From assembly GCA_938010565.1 (NCBI GenBank), contig CALLUQ010000046.1:1-42289 (forward strand): 42,289 nt of DNA, written 5' to 3'. The DNA comes from an uncultured Flavobacteriales bacterium. Its GTDB lineage: Bacteria; Bacteroidota; Bacteroidia; Flavobacteriales_D; CALLUQ01. The notes under the pieces were generated by a model. That model was not told where the DNA came from. It worked only from the letters and a program-made list of their open reading frames with translations, and searched no databases. Both the position numbers and the translations under genes were made by a program. Below are positions 1,449 through 12,431 of the stretch, piece after piece (the stretch's first letter is position 1; each line of letters begins with the position of its first letter).

Positions 1449-2198
1449 CTATTTTTTCAAAAATTGGGAAAGTTTACTCAAGGGCTTTCGGATCATGGTA
1501 AAAGGACCCGGGCGGAGGCCGTTGATCGCCCATGCCAGCCGATCTTCTTTGTTGGCTGCAAGACGGTTTCGCAAAGAGATATTGCTCTGGCCTCCAACGC
1601 GCATTCTGGTAATCGTTTTTGGCAAATAACTCAACGAAACGCCTGCTTTGTGGATCATGCGCAACATCAGTTCATAATCGGCACTGCTTCGCAATTGCAG
1701 ATTATAGCTGCCGTACTGCTCATACATGGCTCTGGAAAGAAAAAAGGTAGGGTGGGGAGGCATCCACCCTTTTTTGAACGCCCCTTTTCGGTACGGACCG
1801 GAAATCCATCTTCGGGTTACTTTATCGGTGTTGGCCCGGTCAACATACACCAGATCGGCATAAAGTGCTTCGGTTCCTTCGGCCTGAATGCGGGCCACCA
1901 CTTCGGAGATCACTGTCGGGTAGGCATAAAGATCATCCGCATTCAGGATCCCTATCAAATCACCGGTAGCCCTGGCCACTCCTTTGTTCATGGCATCATA
2001 AATCCCTTGATCTTTTTCTGAAACGATGGTTGTGATCCGATCCTTGTAGCGGCGAACAATGTCCATCGTCTTATCCGACGAGGCTCCGTCAATAATAATG
2101 TATTCGATAGAATGATAATCCTGATCCACTACCGATTGAATCGTCGCTTCAATGGTGTCGGCTGCATTGTAAGCGATAGTAATGATGGAAATTTTCAT
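1449..2198 (-). CDS. Glycosyltransferase family 2
   Basis: MKISIITIAYNAADTIEATIQSVVDQDYHSIEYIIIDGASSDKT...GILNADD is a GT-A family 2 N-terminus. The ATG at 2198 overlaps the upstream stop (ATGA); the longer ORF start in the track is unlikely. Confidence 0.92.
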   Translation of the reverse strand: MKISIITIAYNAADTIEATIQSVVDQDYHSIEYIIIDGASSDKTMDIVRRYKDRITTIVSEKDQGIYDAMNKGVARATGDLIGILNADDLYAYPTVISEVVARIQAEGTEALYADLVYVDRANTDKVTRRWISGPYRKGAFKKGWMPPHPTFFLSRAMYEQYGSYNLQLRSSADYELMLRMIHKAGVSLSYLPKTITRMRVGGQSNISLRNRLAANKEDRLAWAINGLRPGPFTMIRKPLSKLSQFLKK

Positions 2199-2770
2199 GA
2201 CATTTTGCGCTCTTTTACTTTTGTGGCAGGGTTTCCCTGATAAATGCCGTAAGCTTCCAGGTTTTTGGTTGCAACGGACCCTGCCGATAAAACCGAATGA
2301 GAATGACAGGTAACACCCGGAGCCACCAAGCTTTGTGCTCCTGCCCAGGCTCCGTCTTCCAGGTGAATGCCTTGTACCATCAGGTCGAAGGTGTGTTTTT
2401 TGTAATTGTGGTTGCCGCAAAGCAGCATAGCCCCCTGAGAAACACAACAATGAGCACCGATCTTCACTTCGCCCAAGTTATCGATCCATACGGCTTCTCC
2501 AATCCAGGTATACGCCCCTATTTCGAGTTTCCAAGGGTATTTTATATTGACCCTGGGTTTGATCACCACACCGCGACTAATTTTTGCTCCAAAAAGTTTC
2601 AACACACCTACTCTCAACCCATTAAAAGGGTTCCACGGGTTGAGTAAAAAGACGATGTTGAAAAAATACCACAACCCCCGTTTGACCGGATTGCCCGGAC
2701 GGTACCAGGAGTTATCGAAACGCGATAAATCGGTTTTTTCAGGATCAGTCATGTTTCCGGAATTAAGCAT
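2195..2770 (-). CDS. wcaF: Putative colanic acid biosynthesis acetyltransferase (WcaF-like, left-handed beta-helix)
   Basis: FDNSWYRPGNPVKRGLWYFFNIVFLLNPWNPFNGLRVGVLKLFGAKIS...IGAYTWIGEAVWIDNLGEVKIGAHCCVSQGAMLLCGNHNY matches the WcaF/hexapeptide pattern. Start could also be 2752. Confidence 0.85.
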   Translation of the reverse strand: MLNSGNMTDPEKTDLSRFDNSWYRPGNPVKRGLWYFFNIVFLLNPWNPFNGLRVGVLKLFGAKISRGVVIKPRVNIKYPWKLEIGAYTWIGEAVWIDNLGEVKIGAHCCVSQGAMLLCGNHNYKKHTFDLMVQGIHLEDGAWAGAQSLVAPGVTCHSHSVLSAGSVATKNLEAYGIYQGNPATKVKERKMS

Positions 2771-3917
2771 TTTTGAACAATAAACGATTGCATTCCACAT
2801 CGGCAGGCGGGCACATGGCTTCGCGGCCAAAGGCTGTAGCGGCTTCCGACATTTTTTGAAAGGTGGGTTCATCCATTTCAATGCAATTTTCAAGGACCTG
2901 CAAAAAGTTGGTTTCTTCTGCCAGAGAAAACTCCCAGCCTATGTTTTTTGCCTGTAATCCGCGCCAGGGCGTCTGATCGCTGATCACTACCGGACAACCA
3001 TTCACAAAAGACTCCACTATTACATGGCCATAGTTTTCGTTGAACGTTGGCAGCAGTAAAAAATGGTAGTGCTGCAAAGTGGGCCCTACCTGGTGATAAG
3101 GCAATTCTCCTTTGTATTGTATGTGAATCCTTTCGGTATTTTGGATCAGGGCCTGGCATTCGTTCCAATAGGCGGCCTCATCCACCGGGCCGTAAATATC
3201 GAATTGAACCGCATGCCCTGTTTTGGTTTTGTTGATCCAGTTGATGGCTGCTTTGAGGTTTTTCTTTAAGGCAATCCGCGATAAAAAGAAAAAACGGGCT
3301 TCTCCCGGTTTTTTTTCGTACGAACGGGCATCGGCAGATACATCGGGCAAAGCAATGTTTCTGGCTACCACAACCTTGGAGCGGTTCCCAAAAATACGTT
3401 TGATCTCTGTTTCCTCCAATGCTGTGGAAGCATGCCATGTCACCTCATCGTATAAACCCATTGCTTTTGCTATACGAATGAAAGCATGCTTTTTCAATGC
3501 TTTGATCTTGAGCGCCCCTTCTCCCAGCATACCACGAGGGGCAAGTACCACCTTGTGTCGCATTCTTTTGAGCTTTAAAGCCAACAGCGGCAACAGGGTA
3601 AAGCGATAGGAAAAAAAACTGTTAAAGTAAAGTACATCTGCGTTACACGCTGCGATGAGTTGTTGGAAATAACGGCGGTTCCGATTTTCGGGACTGAGGT
3701 AAATAACCCGGGCTCCTTCCTGTTCCACCCATTGGTCGGAGGGAACTTCGGTATAAGGAGTAACGGATCCAAAATCGGAATTGCTTGTTACAATGGAAAA
3801 TTGAAAGTCTTTTCCCAATACTTTTACCAGATTTGCTACCGAACGGATGGGGCCACCTGCCTTATAACCGGGAAGGTACCAATCCACAAAAACCAATATG
3901 TGGCGTTCAGGCTTCAA
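2763..3917 (-). CDS. Glycosyltransferase family 4/1
   Basis: VDWYLPGYKAGGPIRSVANLV N-terminus; LLLPTFNENYGHVIVESFVNGCPVVISDQTPW GT-B C-terminal nucleotide-sugar motif. Confidence 0.9.
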   Translation of the reverse strand: MKPERHILVFVDWYLPGYKAGGPIRSVANLVKVLGKDFQFSIVTSNSDFGSVTPYTEVPSDQWVEQEGARVIYLSPENRNRRYFQQLIAACNADVLYFNSFFSYRFTLLPLLALKLKRMRHKVVLAPRGMLGEGALKIKALKKHAFIRIAKAMGLYDEVTWHASTALEETEIKRIFGNRSKVVVARNIALPDVSADARSYEKKPGEARFFFLSRIALKKNLKAAINWINKTKTGHAVQFDIYGPVDEAAYWNECQALIQNTERIHIQYKGELPYHQVGPTLQHYHFLLLPTFNENYGHVIVESFVNGCPVVISDQTPWRGLQAKNIGWEFSLAEETNFLQVLENCIEMDEPTFQKMSEAATAFGREAMCPPADVECNRLLFKNA

Positions 3918-5787
3918 TGTTGTGCTTTTGCATCCAGTTTTCCAGTACGATCAGCGGCCACAGGCGCGACCAGCTAACACTTGGGTTTCCTTCTAAAAAC
4001 TTCCTCCACAATTCCTGCAAAGGTTTTTCAAGCATAATGCCGCGCTGCCCCAGGTTTTTGATAGCGGTTTCGGCCATGGGTTTCAAATCGCCTTTGAGCC
4101 AGTCTTTCCAAGGTAAAACAAAACCCATTTTAGGGCGGTTGACAATTTCATCGGGCAAAAGGTCGCCTAAACTTTCCACCAAAAGCTGTTTGGGCGAGTG
4201 CGGATATTTATACCGGTCAGGAATATTCAATACAAATTCGATCAGGGTATGATCGAGGAAGGGTACACGCACTTCCAGAGCGCTGGCCATGCTCATCTGA
4301 TCGGTGTCGCGCAGCAACACATGCTGCATATACGTATGCATTTCAAGGATAGAGACCACACTTAAGCCCGGAAAACGATAGCCTTCTGTTTCATAAGCCG
4401 CAAGGGTACCGGCGATGTGTTTTACCTGGTTGGCAGGTAATGCATTCCTTCCGGTCAGTTTTCGAACAGAAGCATCCAGCAAAACCTGACGCGATACGGG
4501 GTAGATATGATCGATATCAAAATAATCCAACTGCAGGAGTTCTGCGGTTTTATTCGACCCCATGCCGGGGCGGATCTTTTTTAATGCTTCCCCTCCTATC
4601 TTCCGGGCAAACTTGGGAAAACTGAGCAACCACTTTTTCTTTTCCAATTCCAAAGCCCGTTTAAAAATATCATATCCTGCAAACAACTCATCGCCTCCCA
4701 ATCCGGAAAGTGCCATGGTAATTCCGGCTTCTTTGGTGGCTTTGGAAACAATGTATGAATTGGGGCCATCGCCACTGGGGTGGTCCATTGCATTCAATGC
4801 ATCCGGGAGGGCTTGTAAGAAATCATCTGCCGTAAGGCGGATTTCCGTATGGTCGGTTTTGAATTTTTCAGCAATTATACGGGCATATTTTGCCTCACTG
4901 AATGCTTCTTCGTTAAACGTTACCGAAAAGGTTTTCACCGAATGGGTGGCCACCTGGCTCATCAAACCTACCACTGCACTGGAATCGATACCTCCCGACA
5001 AAAAGGCACCAAACGGAACATCTGCTACCATGCGACGTTCCACCGCACCACAAAGCAGATCCCGCACCTTATGTTGTAATCCCGAAGGGGTATAATCGCC
5101 CGCTATATTGCGCCGTTGTGCGGTCATTTCCCACCAGGGTGCAATGGTTACATCTTCTTCGCTGATCCGGATGTAATGGCCGGCGGGTAAAAACTGTACA
5201 TCCGTAAGGATGGTCTGCGGCGTATGCACGGTCTGATAGCGCAGATAATCGATAAATGCTTCTTGGTTGAGTTTACGAGCCACCTGGCCAGACGCCAACA
5301 TGGCACGCATTTCGGAAGAAAAAACGAGCTGATCGTCTGTTTTATGAAAGTACAATGGTTTGATGCCCAAGCGATCGCGTACAAGGTGCAATTCTTCTTT
5401 GTTCCGATCCCAAATGGCAAAAGCGAACATGCCGTTGAAACGAGGGAGTGCATCCAACCCCCACTTTTGCCAGGCAGCCAATACTACTTCCGTATCCGAA
5501 TAGGTCCGGAACTGAAAATCACCTTCCAACGCTTTTCGGATCTCCCGGTAGTTATAAAGTTCACCGTTGTATACGATAGTGAGGGCTCCTCCTGCAACCG
5601 ACATGGGTTGGCGGCCGGCTGAACTCAGATCAAGAATACTCAACCGGCGATGGCCTAAAACCACATTCCGATCTTGATAAATGCCAGAATCATCCGGACC
5701 ACGATGGGCCAGCGCATCGTTCATTTTGCCAACTGTCTCCTTCGCTATCCGCCCATCGTAACGAAATATGCCGTTAATTCCACACAT
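3907..5787 (-). CDS. asnB: Asparagine synthase (glutamine-hydrolysing)
   Basis: MCGINGIFRYDG (N-terminal Cys nucleophile), HRGPDDSG, and SGGIDSSAVV PP-loop. Confidence 0.96.
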   Translation of the reverse strand: MCGINGIFRYDGRIAKETVGKMNDALAHRGPDDSGIYQDRNVVLGHRRLSILDLSSAGRQPMSVAGGALTIVYNGELYNYREIRKALEGDFQFRTYSDTEVVLAAWQKWGLDALPRFNGMFAFAIWDRNKEELHLVRDRLGIKPLYFHKTDDQLVFSSEMRAMLASGQVARKLNQEAFIDYLRYQTVHTPQTILTDVQFLPAGHYIRISEEDVTIAPWWEMTAQRRNIAGDYTPSGLQHKVRDLLCGAVERRMVADVPFGAFLSGGIDSSAVVGLMSQVATHSVKTFSVTFNEEAFSEAKYARIIAEKFKTDHTEIRLTADDFLQALPDALNAMDHPSGDGPNSYIVSKATKEAGITMALSGLGGDELFAGYDIFKRALELEKKKWLLSFPKFARKIGGEALKKIRPGMGSNKTAELLQLDYFDIDHIYPVSRQVLLDASVRKLTGRNALPANQVKHIAGTLAAYETEGYRFPGLSVVSILEMHTYMQHVLLRDTDQMSMASALEVRVPFLDHTLIEFVLNIPDRYKYPHSPKQLLVESLGDLLPDEIVNRPKMGFVLPWKDWLKGDLKPMAETAIKNLGQRGIMLEKPLQELWRKFLEGNPSVSWSRLWPLIVLENWMQKHNIEA

Positions 5788-5791
5788 ATAC

Positions 5792-6844
5792 TTATAATTG
5801 CGCCGAAAGTAAAGTTTGTGCCCAGATCTCCGGTGTAAGTCTTTTTGATATTTCTACACTGGCTTTTGCCATTTCATTTAATTCTTCGTCTGTTTTTTCT
5901 ACCATCCGTTGCATTTGCTGCAACAGTGCTTTTTTGTTTCCGGCTTCAAAAGCATAACCGTTTTGTTCCGGTTCGAGAAAAGTAGCAACGGCTCCTACTT
6001 TATGGCTACATATCAGCGGAAACCCGGCAGCAGCAAACTCGTGTACGGTTACTGCCCATGGTTCTTTATGGCTGGGTAGTATAAAAACACCTGTTTCTGC
6101 AATAAAACGTTCCATTTCGTGTGGTTGTACAAACCCAAAATGCCGGATGCGCTCATCTTTCGCTCTCTGATCCCATGCATCACCCGTTCCCAAACAATAC
6201 AATTCCCAGTTGTTGGGCTGCTGTTGGTGCAATTCCAGAAATGCTTCCCACATATCAAAAATACCTTTAAAATCGACGTAACGTCCGATGTAGAGAAAGC
6301 GGTGGGGAAAAGCGGCTTGTTTTTGGGCACGGTTCTTTTCGTAATAAAGAGAAAACAAAGCATGATCGGCCGTGTAAAAGCCGGTCATGATCCGTTTTTC
6401 GGGAAACCCCATTTTTTTTGCAAACACCACCTGTGGCGCTCCCGGAACCCATGCATGGGTAAATTTACTTTTAAGGTAAAAAGGACTGATCAGTGCAGCG
6501 GCCCATTGTTTGGCATCGCCACGCCAATGGTTATCGAGTGTAAGTACACAAGGAATCTGCTTCCCGAAAGCTTTCACCGTTTTTAAATATCCTTTATCCA
6601 TCCAACCGGAACAAACCAGAATATCGGGATCAATCTTACGGGCCAGGTCGGTTAAGGAATCGTCGTTGTAATCTTCCCTCGGATAAAAGCGAATGGAACT
6701 GTTTTCTGCAAACTCAAAAGGAGCTTCTTTGTTCACAGGCCAGCGCACAACGTGTATTTCAGCTCCTTGCTCTAACAGAGCATTCAAACCGGCTAAAAAA
6801 TAACCTGCGAGTTCGGTGTATAAAAAAAGGACTTTTTTCTTCAA
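5792..6844 (-). CDS. Glycosyltransferase family 4
   Basis: FLYIGRYVDFKGIFDMWEAF...GVFILPSHKEPWAVTVHEFAAAGFPLICSHKVGA (GT4 E-x7-E-like region). Confidence 0.88.
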   Translation of the reverse strand: MKKKVLFLYTELAGYFLAGLNALLEQGAEIHVVRWPVNKEAPFEFAENSSIRFYPREDYNDDSLTDLARKIDPDILVCSGWMDKGYLKTVKAFGKQIPCVLTLDNHWRGDAKQWAAALISPFYLKSKFTHAWVPGAPQVVFAKKMGFPEKRIMTGFYTADHALFSLYYEKNRAQKQAAFPHRFLYIGRYVDFKGIFDMWEAFLELHQQQPNNWELYCLGTGDAWDQRAKDERIRHFGFVQPHEMERFIAETGVFILPSHKEPWAVTVHEFAAAGFPLICSHKVGAVATFLEPEQNGYAFEAGNKKALLQQMQRMVEKTDEELNEMAKASVEISKRLTPEIWAQTLLSAQL

Positions 6845-9229: not shown

Positions 9230-10954
9230 TTATCCTTTTCGGTGAAGAAAAGCCTTGAGATGCTGCTTAAACTGTTCCGGACGCTGGCGCACAAAGCGAC
9301 GCAAGATCGCTATGTTTTGTTTCCATTCTTCCCGGGTTACGGGTTTTCTCCACCGCGCAAGATGCCGGCCGATAGCGCCATCCAGTTGTTTTTCAAGTTG
9401 TTGTATGATCCGTTCGGCCCGCTCCGGATCGAACTGTTGCTGCAACATGTTATCTGCTCTGGATCCCAAAAATTTTCGGTACTCAGGAACCGCAGACAAG
9501 GCTTTGAACAACTGGCTTACATGCGACCCGGAAGCTTCCAGATGCCGAAACATGTCGGTATAAAATGCCGTAGGTGAAGTATAGCCTAATCCGTAGTCCA
9601 TATCAAAGATCATCCAGTACCACTTTCCGGAAGGCAAGCCCGGTACCCGAACCGAATCGGCCAGGCGGAAATAACGCACATTGTTATTCGGCCAGTCGGT
9701 ATTGGCAAAAAAAGTTTCGGCCAGCACAAAATCGGTAAACGAAGCAATGTCTATGGCTTCGGTTACCCGGCTGTAAGCAACCGGATCGTTCAGGTCGTTC
9801 TTTTTTACAAAATGCATCAAAGCTTTCCATTCGGCTGCTTGTTCGGCATCGCCATTTTCGTAGATGCCGTTCTTTTCCAGTACGGAAAATGCTTTTTCTT
9901 CCAACCCAAACCGGGCCAGAAAGTAATCATCGCTAAACCGGTCCCGGATGTTATGGATGCCCCAGTATACTCCATTAAGGTAAAGTTCTACCGGTTGAAA
10001 ACGCTGACAAATAAGGTGGGAGCCTTCCAACATAAGTTGAGCCAGTGCATCCCTAAAAAGGGTGTGGCCCCAATCGTTTCCGCTGTTCCGGAGAATGAAT
10101 TCGGTGAAATTGCGTTGCGCATCGTTTTTAAACAAGGGCAAATGAAAGGAAGGGCTGCCGTACTTATTCCTGGCGTATAAACGAATCGATTTCTGAGGGA
10201 AAGCCCGGGTTGCATTGCCGTTGATGCGAACGCCCGCATCCGAACTCCATATTTTACGGCCGTTCGGGTTGTAGTATTCAAAACGGACTTCCCGCTCCCA
10301 TCGTTTGCCCCGTTGATGGTAATTGGCAGCCGCATCCCACCACTCAATATCCCATTTTTGCTTGGAAGCCCGGAAATTGGCATTGCTCCATTCCGTATTT
10401 CCTGCATGGTAAATGCCCCGTGCATGGCCAAAAAGGTTTTCCGTATGTGTAGACAACGCTACCAAAGGAAGACCGGAGGGTTCGCGGAAAAAATACGTTT
10501 GTGTTTGGTAAGGGCTGAGGCGTTTGTTCCCTTTAAAAATTGCTGCACGAAGGGTAAAGGCCTCTTTTTTTTCTTTGTAAGGCCGTTTCCACTTGCGTGA
10601 TGTGTTTTTCAGTTCGATGTCCGGAACCTGATGCAAAATGGTTTCGCTACACAACGGCTCCTCAACAATAGCGGAAGTAGCATCGGGCAAGGCGCCGTCA
10701 ATGGTATAGCGTACCACTGCGCCGGGCGATACGTTTTTATGAAACTCCAGGCAAATGGAAGTGGCGTAAAACCCACCTTCCAAGTTTAAGGCCGGTGCCC
10801 GTTCGGAAGTAACCTCTGCTGGCAAAGTAGCCAAGGCTCCTCCTCCATCCGGTTGCCATCCGTTTTGATAACCAAAGAAACCCATCACAACCGATCCGGT
10901 TAGCATGAGCCAAAGTAGGGGATCTTTCCAATATGTTTGGTACTGTCTTTCCAA
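9230..10954 (-). CDS. CotH kinase family protein with N-terminal chitobiase-C-like segment
   Basis: VRYTIDGALPDATS segment; then GVRINGNATRAFPQKSIRLYAR, NTDWPNNNVRYFR and WYWMIFDMDYGLG, which are CotH family motifs including the D-x-D metal site. Confidence 0.88.
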   Translation of the reverse strand: MERQYQTYWKDPLLWLMLTGSVVMGFFGYQNGWQPDGGGALATLPAEVTSERAPALNLEGGFYATSICLEFHKNVSPGAVVRYTIDGALPDATSAIVEEPLCSETILHQVPDIELKNTSRKWKRPYKEKKEAFTLRAAIFKGNKRLSPYQTQTYFFREPSGLPLVALSTHTENLFGHARGIYHAGNTEWSNANFRASKQKWDIEWWDAAANYHQRGKRWEREVRFEYYNPNGRKIWSSDAGVRINGNATRAFPQKSIRLYARNKYGSPSFHLPLFKNDAQRNFTEFILRNSGNDWGHTLFRDALAQLMLEGSHLICQRFQPVELYLNGVYWGIHNIRDRFSDDYFLARFGLEEKAFSVLEKNGIYENGDAEQAAEWKALMHFVKKNDLNDPVAYSRVTEAIDIASFTDFVLAETFFANTDWPNNNVRYFRLADSVRVPGLPSGKWYWMIFDMDYGLGYTSPTAFYTDMFRHLEASGSHVSQLFKALSAVPEYRKFLGSRADNMLQQQFDPERAERIIQQLEKQLDGAIGRHLARWRKPVTREEWKQNIAILRRFVRQRPEQFKQHLKAFLHRKG

Positions 10955-10963
10955 GAGGTAGCC

Positions 10964-11401
10964 TTAAGAAACTTTTTTATCCAAAAAGAAAAGTACAGCG
11001 GTTACCAGTACATACCCAATGCTCAAAACAACGGCAAACCCCGATCCCATACCCAAACCCAGGATCAACACCAAAAAAAGATAAACCCATTGCCGAACAT
11101 TGCCGGCAATGATCTTAAAGCGCAACAAAGTAAGCAGTGCGGCAAACCCAATGGCCAGCGGAATGGAGAACCGGATGATGCTGATGGCTACAGCGGTGCT
11201 TATCGCAATTAAGATCAATTGTTTGGCAAATTGCTTGTCCTCCGTATTCTTAGCCGAGCCTCGCCAGTACAGCCGATGAAAAAGCCAGGCCCATAGCCCT
11301 GTGAGGAACAATAAAAAAAGATAGTTGGGAAGGTCTGCCATCGAAAAACCGGAGAGGTTGTCTGCAACAAATGCCTTGATCCATTGGGTTATATTGTCCA
11401 T
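10964..11401 (-). CDS. DUF4956-like membrane protein
   Basis: ~145 aa with several TM segments; RFSIPLAIGFAALLTLLRFKIIAGNVRQWVYLFLVLILGLGMGSG resembles the DUF4956 core; adjacent to CotH. Confidence 0.62.
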   Translation of the reverse strand: MDNITQWIKAFVADNLSGFSMADLPNYLFLLFLTGLWAWLFHRLYWRGSAKNTEDKQFAKQLILIAISTAVAISIIRFSIPLAIGFAALLTLLRFKIIAGNVRQWVYLFLVLILGLGMGSGFAVVLSIGYVLVTAVLFFLDKKVS

Positions 11402-11486
11402 GGGTTCAAAAGTAACATATTCGCTCCATTTTTACCATTATAAAAAATAGGTTTAATTTGTAGGCCTTACTTGTTTAGATTTAGTT

Positions 11487-12431
11487 ATGGGAAGAGTATT
11501 AGTTACGGGTGGCGCCGGTTTTATCGGAAGTCATCTGGTCAAAAGCTTGGTTCGATCCGGACATGAAGTAGTGGTGGCAGATACGTTACTGCGCGGCAAT
11601 AAGATCGAAAAGTCCATTTTTAACAACCTTGAGTTCCACAAAGCCGATGTGCGGGATCATGCTAAAATGAATGCGTTGGCCAAAGGGACCGATCTCATTT
11701 TCCATTTTGCTGCTGTTTTAGGAGTGGATGTGGTTGCAGACAATCCGGTTACTACCATGGATACGGAAGTAATTGGCCTTCGAAACATTACGGATGCAGC
11801 AGTTACCAATGGCATCGGGAAGATCATTTATGCTTCTACCAGTGGGGTTTACGGTCATTCGGCCATCGAGAAAAGTTTCAAGGAAAATATCCAGCTCGAT
11901 CCGAGAACCAGCTATGCTATTGCGAAACGATACAATGAAATTTATCTGGCTGCATTGCATGAAGAAAAAGGGCTGGAGTCTCTTTCCCTTCGTTTTTTCA
12001 ATGTTTACGGGCAACATCAGGACAACCGTATGGTGGTTCCCCGTTTCTTTGAGCAAGCCATTGCCAACCAGCCTTTAACTGTTTTTGGGAACGGGCAACA
12101 AACCCGCGACTTTACCTACATTGACGATACCATTGAAAGTTGTATCCGATTGATGGATAAGGTCAGAGGGCGCGAAATTTACAATATTGGTTGTGAAGTG
12201 GAAACCAAGATCCTTGACCTGGCGGAAAAGATCATTGCCATTACGGGTTCTTCTTCTACCGTCCAATACATTGATGCTCCGAAAAAACGGTACGATTTTG
12301 AAATTGAAAGGCGCTGTGGCAATTCGGTTAAATTGTTTGATGCCATCAACTACAAACCGCAGGTGGAGCTGTTGGAAGGACTGAAAAAAACCTACACCGA
12401 TCACTACCAATCGGAAATACAAACGATTTAA
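11487..12431 (+). CDS. NAD-dependent epimerase/dehydratase (extended SDR, UDP-sugar type)
   Basis: VLVTGGAGFIGSHLVKSL Rossmann motif; YAIAKRYNE (YxxxK); RFFNVYGQHQ; FGNGQQTRDFTYIDD. Confidence 0.93.
   Translation: MGRVLVTGGAGFIGSHLVKSLVRSGHEVVVADTLLRGNKIEKSIFNNLEFHKADVRDHAKMNALAKGTDLIFHFAAVLGVDVVADNPVTTMDTEVIGLRNITDAAVTNGIGKIIYASTSGVYGHSAIEKSFKENIQLDPRTSYAIAKRYNEIYLAALHEEKGLESLSLRFFNVYGQHQDNRMVVPRFFEQAIANQPLTVFGNGQQTRDFTYIDDTIESCIRLMDKVRGREIYNIGCEVETKILDLAEKIIAITGSSSTVQYIDAPKKRYDFEIERRCGNSVKLFDAINYKPQVELLEGLKKTYTDHYQSEIQTI

Follow-up and report, generated by a model that had tools for sequence, protein, structure and literature searches.

A DUF4956-CotH gene pair without an adjacent VTC gene opens a Wzy-type polysaccharide operon and recurs in related genomes

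The window analysed here, a stretch of 42,289 nt, is the entire contig C46 of a 3.02 Mb draft genome (completeness 91.6%) and carries a polysaccharide operon that is opened by a gene pair encoding a short DUF4956 membrane protein and a CotH-family kinase-like protein, hereafter CotH1. The arrangement is real, conserved and derived, and is best filed as a variant of the pel accessory module, like which it appears to work. Our preferred reading of the sequences, to which we assign about an even chance, is that the pair represents a VTC-less form of the CotH-VTC-DUF4956 module on a Wzy operon and acts on a glycan, a carrier or an assembly protein, most likely by phosphate transfer. CotH, VTC and DUF4956 recur together beside exopolysaccharide genes, and a lineage that lacks VTC and the DUF4956 tail and retains the membrane domain and an intact CotH splits this module into parts. 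Such a split predicts a working core made up of the DUF4956 transmembrane domain and CotH, with the cytosolic tail as the partner of VTC, and it raises the question of which phosphate donor serves a kinase outside the cytoplasm.

On the minus strand, the gene order is short DUF4956, CotH1, Wzy, SGNH hydrolase, GT4, AsnB-like, GT4, WcaF-like and GT2 (Table 1), with 9 bp between DUF4956 and CotH1 and 0 bp between CotH1 and Wzy. The preliminary description of this DNA had placed the pair next to an O-antigen ligase/polymerase and glycosyltransferases, and profile matches of the polymerase, the feature expected of a Wzy-dependent locus, and of the GT4 and GT2 proteins bear this out. Neither a flippase nor an initiating transferase was detected among the scanned window proteins, and the operon runs toward the contig end. 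A Pfam scan of the SGNH-type window protein gave no match; an ortholog matched Lipase_GDSL weakly (E 0.019). The GT2 gene probably starts at an internal codon of its annotated frame. Divergently oriented, and 85 bp from the DUF4956 start, lies a sugar epimerase gene whose orthologs flank the operons of three relatives.

Table 1 Features of the operon and its flank in the window
Feature	Position	Strand	Basis or remark
GT2 glycosyltransferase	1449..2450	-	PF00535 E 1e-27, domain from residue 88
WcaF-family polysaccharide O-acetyltransferase	2195..2893	-	NF007797 224 bits, cut-off 192
GT4 glycosyltransferase	2763..3917	-	PF00534
AsnB-like amidotransferase	3907..5787	-	PF00733 E 2e-85; TIGR01536 above its cut-off
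GT4 glycosyltransferase	5792..6844	-	PF13692 E 5e-19
Membrane-anchored SGNH-type hydrolase, 311 aa	6948..7883	-	Conserved GDS and D-x-x-H motifs
Wzy/O-antigen-ligase-type polymerase, 449 aa	7880..9229	-	PF04932 E 2.5e-13; conserved beside CotH1
CotH1, membrane-anchored CotH-family kinase-like protein, 574 aa, TTG start	9230..10954	-	PF08757 E 1e-43; Foldseek 5jd9/5jda
CotH1 metal-binding-type D-x-D (D451, D453), predicted	9596..9604	-	Invariant 27/27; aligned to WDYD of 5jd9
CotH1 catalytic-loop-like motif NTDWPNNN (N418, D420, N425)	9680..9703	-	Invariant 27/27; aligned to NFDGFVHN of B. cereus CotH
CotH1 N-lobe motif R250...QK255 (putative phosphate/nucleotide-binding Lys)	10190..10207	-	R250, K255 invariant 27/27
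CotH1 predicted N-terminal membrane helix (residues 12-31), positive side ahead	10862..10921	-	AlphaFold2 helix 12-31
Short DUF4956 membrane protein, 145 aa	10964..11401	-	PF16316 partial match; all-helical model
Divergent NAD-dependent sugar epimerase/dehydratase	11487..12431	+	PF01370 E 8e-58

Two further observations concern the ends of the operon. The sequence TACTTTTG at window positions 11407-11414 (minus strand), which fits the Bacteroidota -7 box TANNTTTG, ends 5 nt ahead of the DUF4956 ATG, and the DUF4956-led transcript may for this reason be nearly leaderless. Near the contig end, positions 300-1279 hold a tandem array of ~3.9 copies of a 251-bp unit. Because a similar translated stretch (FTTQAVMD.VGYEIVRCPVE) stands at the start of contig C155 (L180:3-299), this array may belong to a dispersed repeat at which the assembly broke off.

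CotH1 matched PF08757 far above the cut-off (150.6 bits, cut-off 23.8), with residues 242-560 covering profile positions 1-320 of 322, and an AlphaFold2 model retrieved 5jd9/5jda as the best Foldseek matches (E 5.5e-12, TM 0.72 by target length), with the B. cereus CotH structure aligning to CotH1 over the catalytic loop and the D-x-D motif. These results corroborate the CotH assignment made in the preliminary description, as well as its statement that the protein keeps the D-x-D stretch WYWMIFDMDYGLG and NTDWPNNN: both were found, and R250, K255, N418, D420, N425, D451 and D453 were unchanged in all 27 operon CotH1 proteins compared, at roughly 30% identity. The window's genome has six CotH matches in total. 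Kinase-fold relatives such as SelO and SidJ catalyse different reactions, and a second CotH protein encoded in the operons of relatives (CotH2) has lost the canonical D-x-D, so that non-canonical CotH forms exist in this system. It is conceivable by analogy that CotH1 uses its fold for another transfer, such as AMPylation or transfer from a different phosphoryl donor, or only for binding or scaffolding; we give little credence to this idea, against which stands the retention of every canonical residue in 27 of 27 sequences.

Nearly all operon CotH1 relatives carry a single N-terminal transmembrane segment after K/R-rich residues, whereas the helix of the window protein itself falls just below the hydropathy cut-off used. 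Given this pattern and the positive-inside rule, we infer that the kinase-fold domain lies outside the cytoplasm. To our knowledge, ATP is not expected in the periplasm, and such a location would make the phosphate donor problematic for a kinase model. One conceivable solution is that the DUF4956 transmembrane domain and CotH1 constitute a VTC-independent, ATP-free extracytoplasmic kinase unit, in which DUF4956 would pass or position a phosphoryl donor (polyphosphate or a lipid-linked phosphate) and CotH1 would phosphorylate the nascent polysaccharide; we regard this proposal as a long shot.

The DUF4956 partner is the transmembrane half of its family only, judging from its alignment. In the HMM search that the preliminary description had proposed, CotH1 passed PF08757 and the 145-aa protein did match DUF4956, but only over the N-terminal half of PF16316 (profile positions 15-112 of 169; E 2.9e-6) and at 27.5 bits, below the gathering cut-off of 30.6. 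A profile built from eight short relatives retrieved full-length DUF4956 proteins (best E 1.4e-12), which argues against a chance resemblance, and the short protein is 30-33% identical to the DUF4956 forms of VTC-containing operons described below (type I). Its alignment with the full-length type I proteins continues through the last transmembrane helix and then ends; the C-terminal cytosolic (ACT-type) domain is absent, and no remnant was found in the 9 bp before the CotH1 start. The label "DUF4956-like" thus stands for the transmembrane domain and has to be withdrawn for the cytosolic half, which is lost. The structure model was all-helical (mean pLDDT 68) and returned nothing in Foldseek at E below 0.9. 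Truncation by a frameshift or an assembly error was rejected: 21 operons share the VTC-less form, and in the window 9 bp separate DUF4956 from CotH.

Used as a query, the 145-aa protein found matches in 18 of 120 relatives, the window's own genome counted, and these matches split into long (~230-260 aa) and short (~127-160 aa) forms; all six short forms outside the window lay beside CotH and Wzy genes. A single CotH sequence as query of genome contigs retrieved no relatives, and the search was repeated with an alignment. Surveys with a Wzy alignment located the gene in 41 of 399 genomes from the window's order, which the names of public loci set in or near Flavobacteriales, and in 2 of 396 genomes of a phylum sample, one of the two being the window's own. 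Local profile scans sorted the loci into three types, leaving out L128, which shares a contig with L193. Type I comprises a full DUF4956, VTC, CotH1, Wzy, CotH2 and a phosphoesterase-like gene in six Bacteroidota loci (L066-L071), one of them cut at a contig end after Wzy. Type II combines a short DUF4956 with CotH1 and Wzy and has no VTC (21 loci in 20 genomes including the window's, all in its order; the DUF4956 start of L061 is masked by N), and most of these loci also have CotH2 and the phosphoesterase-like gene. Type III, with 22 loci, some of them on short contigs, has Wzy without CotH or DUF4956. In type II, DUF4956 and CotH1 are adjacent and co-directional with gaps of -88 to +12 bp; most type I loci have ~700-740 bp between the two, filled by the VTC gene. 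The preliminary description had made its reading depend on conservation of the pair with polysaccharide genes in other genomes, and the 21 VTC-less operons document exactly this. A chance juxtaposition of CotH and DUF4956 was rejected in view of the conservation of the pair across relatives.

Since one ~1 kb deletion would account for both losses, parsimony suggests that a single event of this kind removed the DUF4956 tail and VTC jointly. In the CotH1 tree, which is unrooted and has long branches, a single branch (SH-aLRT 98) separates the type II sequences from the others, so the joint loss probably occurred once. The type II operon would accordingly be the derived form and a type I-like operon the ancestral one, a direction of change that rests on parsimony because type I and type II CotH1 are only ~30% identical and because of the same properties of the tree. 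Tail and VTC need not be functionally linked to have been lost together, since a single deletion suffices as an explanation. Over all loci compared, VTC adjoins 72 of the 78 full-length DUF4956 genes and not one of the 19 short ones in uncut loci (a twentieth, L094, is truncated where its locus ends; Fisher p 2.5e-15, which we do not count as independent evidence, since a single event is compatible with the tree). DUF4956, VTC and CotH also lie close together in several Bacillaceae and Balneolales loci, which may or may not be pel loci, and elsewhere CotH2-like proteins occur in DUF4956-VTC arrays, as in L246, L247 and L252, where the three genes stand side by side without CotH1 or Wzy.

No VTC gene is present anywhere on contig C46, in agreement with the preliminary description as far as operon and contig are concerned; for the genome the statement does not hold, as contig C65 carries a VTC gene directly followed by a full-length DUF4956 (250 aa), with no CotH in the stretch read. 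The VTC-less operons suggest that the pair can work without VTC. A VTC encoded elsewhere could nevertheless serve it, and since all 20 type II genomes keep such a gene at another site, polyphosphate made there is a possible donor. The pair might even still depend on polyphosphate, which the distant VTC and full-length DUF4956 would provide in trans, with only the gene location changed. This explanation, which draws on the 20 of 20 genomes and on the VTC-DUF4956 neighbourhood on C65, appears improbable to us, as a distant VTC also occurs in most surveyed genomes without any such cassette, including most type III genomes, and as the short DUF4956 lacks the domain expected to meet VTC.

The additional genes of the relatives bear on what the pair may act upon. 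CotH2 is a diverged CotH of ~750-870 aa in most loci (L059-L065, L066-L071, L182-L203) in which KWSFRIK-like and SxDWSD motifs are retained but EPVxYES replaces D-x-D; the one member tested contains a beta-helix domain. The gene after CotH2 matches metallophosphoesterases weakly. The two co-occur, and both are absent from the window operon and from L212; a search of the window's genome (91.6% complete) yielded no phosphoesterase-like gene of this kind. Relocation of CotH2 within this genome was rejected, as the CotH2-like match on C29 is distant (324 bits versus 793-1241 for the operon forms) and lacks the operon-type motif. Away from the operon, the window's genome encodes a 977-aa CotH2-like protein with altered catalytic-loop residues (L181:6552-9485). 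As has been proposed for pel loci, CotH1 could instead be a regulatory kinase whose target is not the glycan but a protein of the machinery that assembles the polysaccharide (Wzy, a co-polymerase or a surface protein). We consider this unlikely, though it deserves attention: in Bacillus, the CotH that has been characterised acts as a protein Ser/Thr kinase on CotB and is inactive as D228Q (PMC7821199), and a CotH mutant of S. intermedius continues to produce Pel, though at a lower level (PMC12345266). On the other hand, an unsystematic look at the operons revealed no obvious candidate for a dedicated substrate, for instance a protein with Ser-rich repeats, and the extracytoplasmic CotH2 and phosphoesterase-like genes of the relatives fit polymer tailoring at least as well.

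In the mechanism we favour, a single N-terminal helix would anchor CotH1 and place the kinase-fold domain outside the cytoplasm, and the short DUF4956 would be the membrane partner of CotH1. At the outer face of the inner membrane, the target of the pair would be the glycan as Wzy extends it, the carrier of this glycan or an assembly protein, and the pair would act most likely through phosphate transfer by CotH1, whereby the polymer would be tailored or its amount controlled. In the ancestral operon, the ACT-type tail of DUF4956 would probably have been the docking site of a cytosolic VTC; tail and VTC may then have gone in one deletion, and the residual core would have kept working.

Compared with known systems, the window pair shares only the DUF4956 family with the stand-alone VTC-DUF4956 pair on C65, which differs in its full-length DUF4956, its adjacent VTC and the lack of CotH in the stretch read. 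With Bacillus CotH (5jd9/5jda), a spore-coat protein kinase, CotH1 has in common the kinase fold, the catalytic-loop Asp/Asn and the D-x-D motifs; in contrast, CotH1 is predicted to be membrane-anchored, has an extra N-terminal beta-rich region and is ~12% identical over the fold alignment. Proximity of CotH and DUF4956 to exopolysaccharide genes is already known in Gram-positive pel loci: Whitfield et al. 2020 described CotH, a polyphosphate polymerase, DUF4956 and DUF4832 beside them (PMC7112168), and in S. intermedius CotH is described as secreted and DUF4956 as having four transmembrane segments and an intracellular ACT domain (PMC12345266, 2025). The same study reported the three-gene CotH/VTC/DUF4956 arrangement as not found outside Pel loci; contrary to this statement, our type I loci show it in Wzy operons. 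The window, in turn, has no adjacent VTC and differs from the pel module (SIR_1592-1594) in its Wzy-type operon, its Bacteroidota host and a DUF4956 without the ACT-type tail; the likeness consists in an extracytoplasmic CotH (predicted here) and a membrane DUF4956 together with exopolysaccharide genes. In S. intermedius, the level of Pel and aggregation changed when the gene for CotH or that for DUF4956 was deleted, whereas the VTC mutant still aggregated and no difference was reported for it (PMC12345266), data that by analogy would agree with CotH and DUF4956 being the parts of the module that matter.
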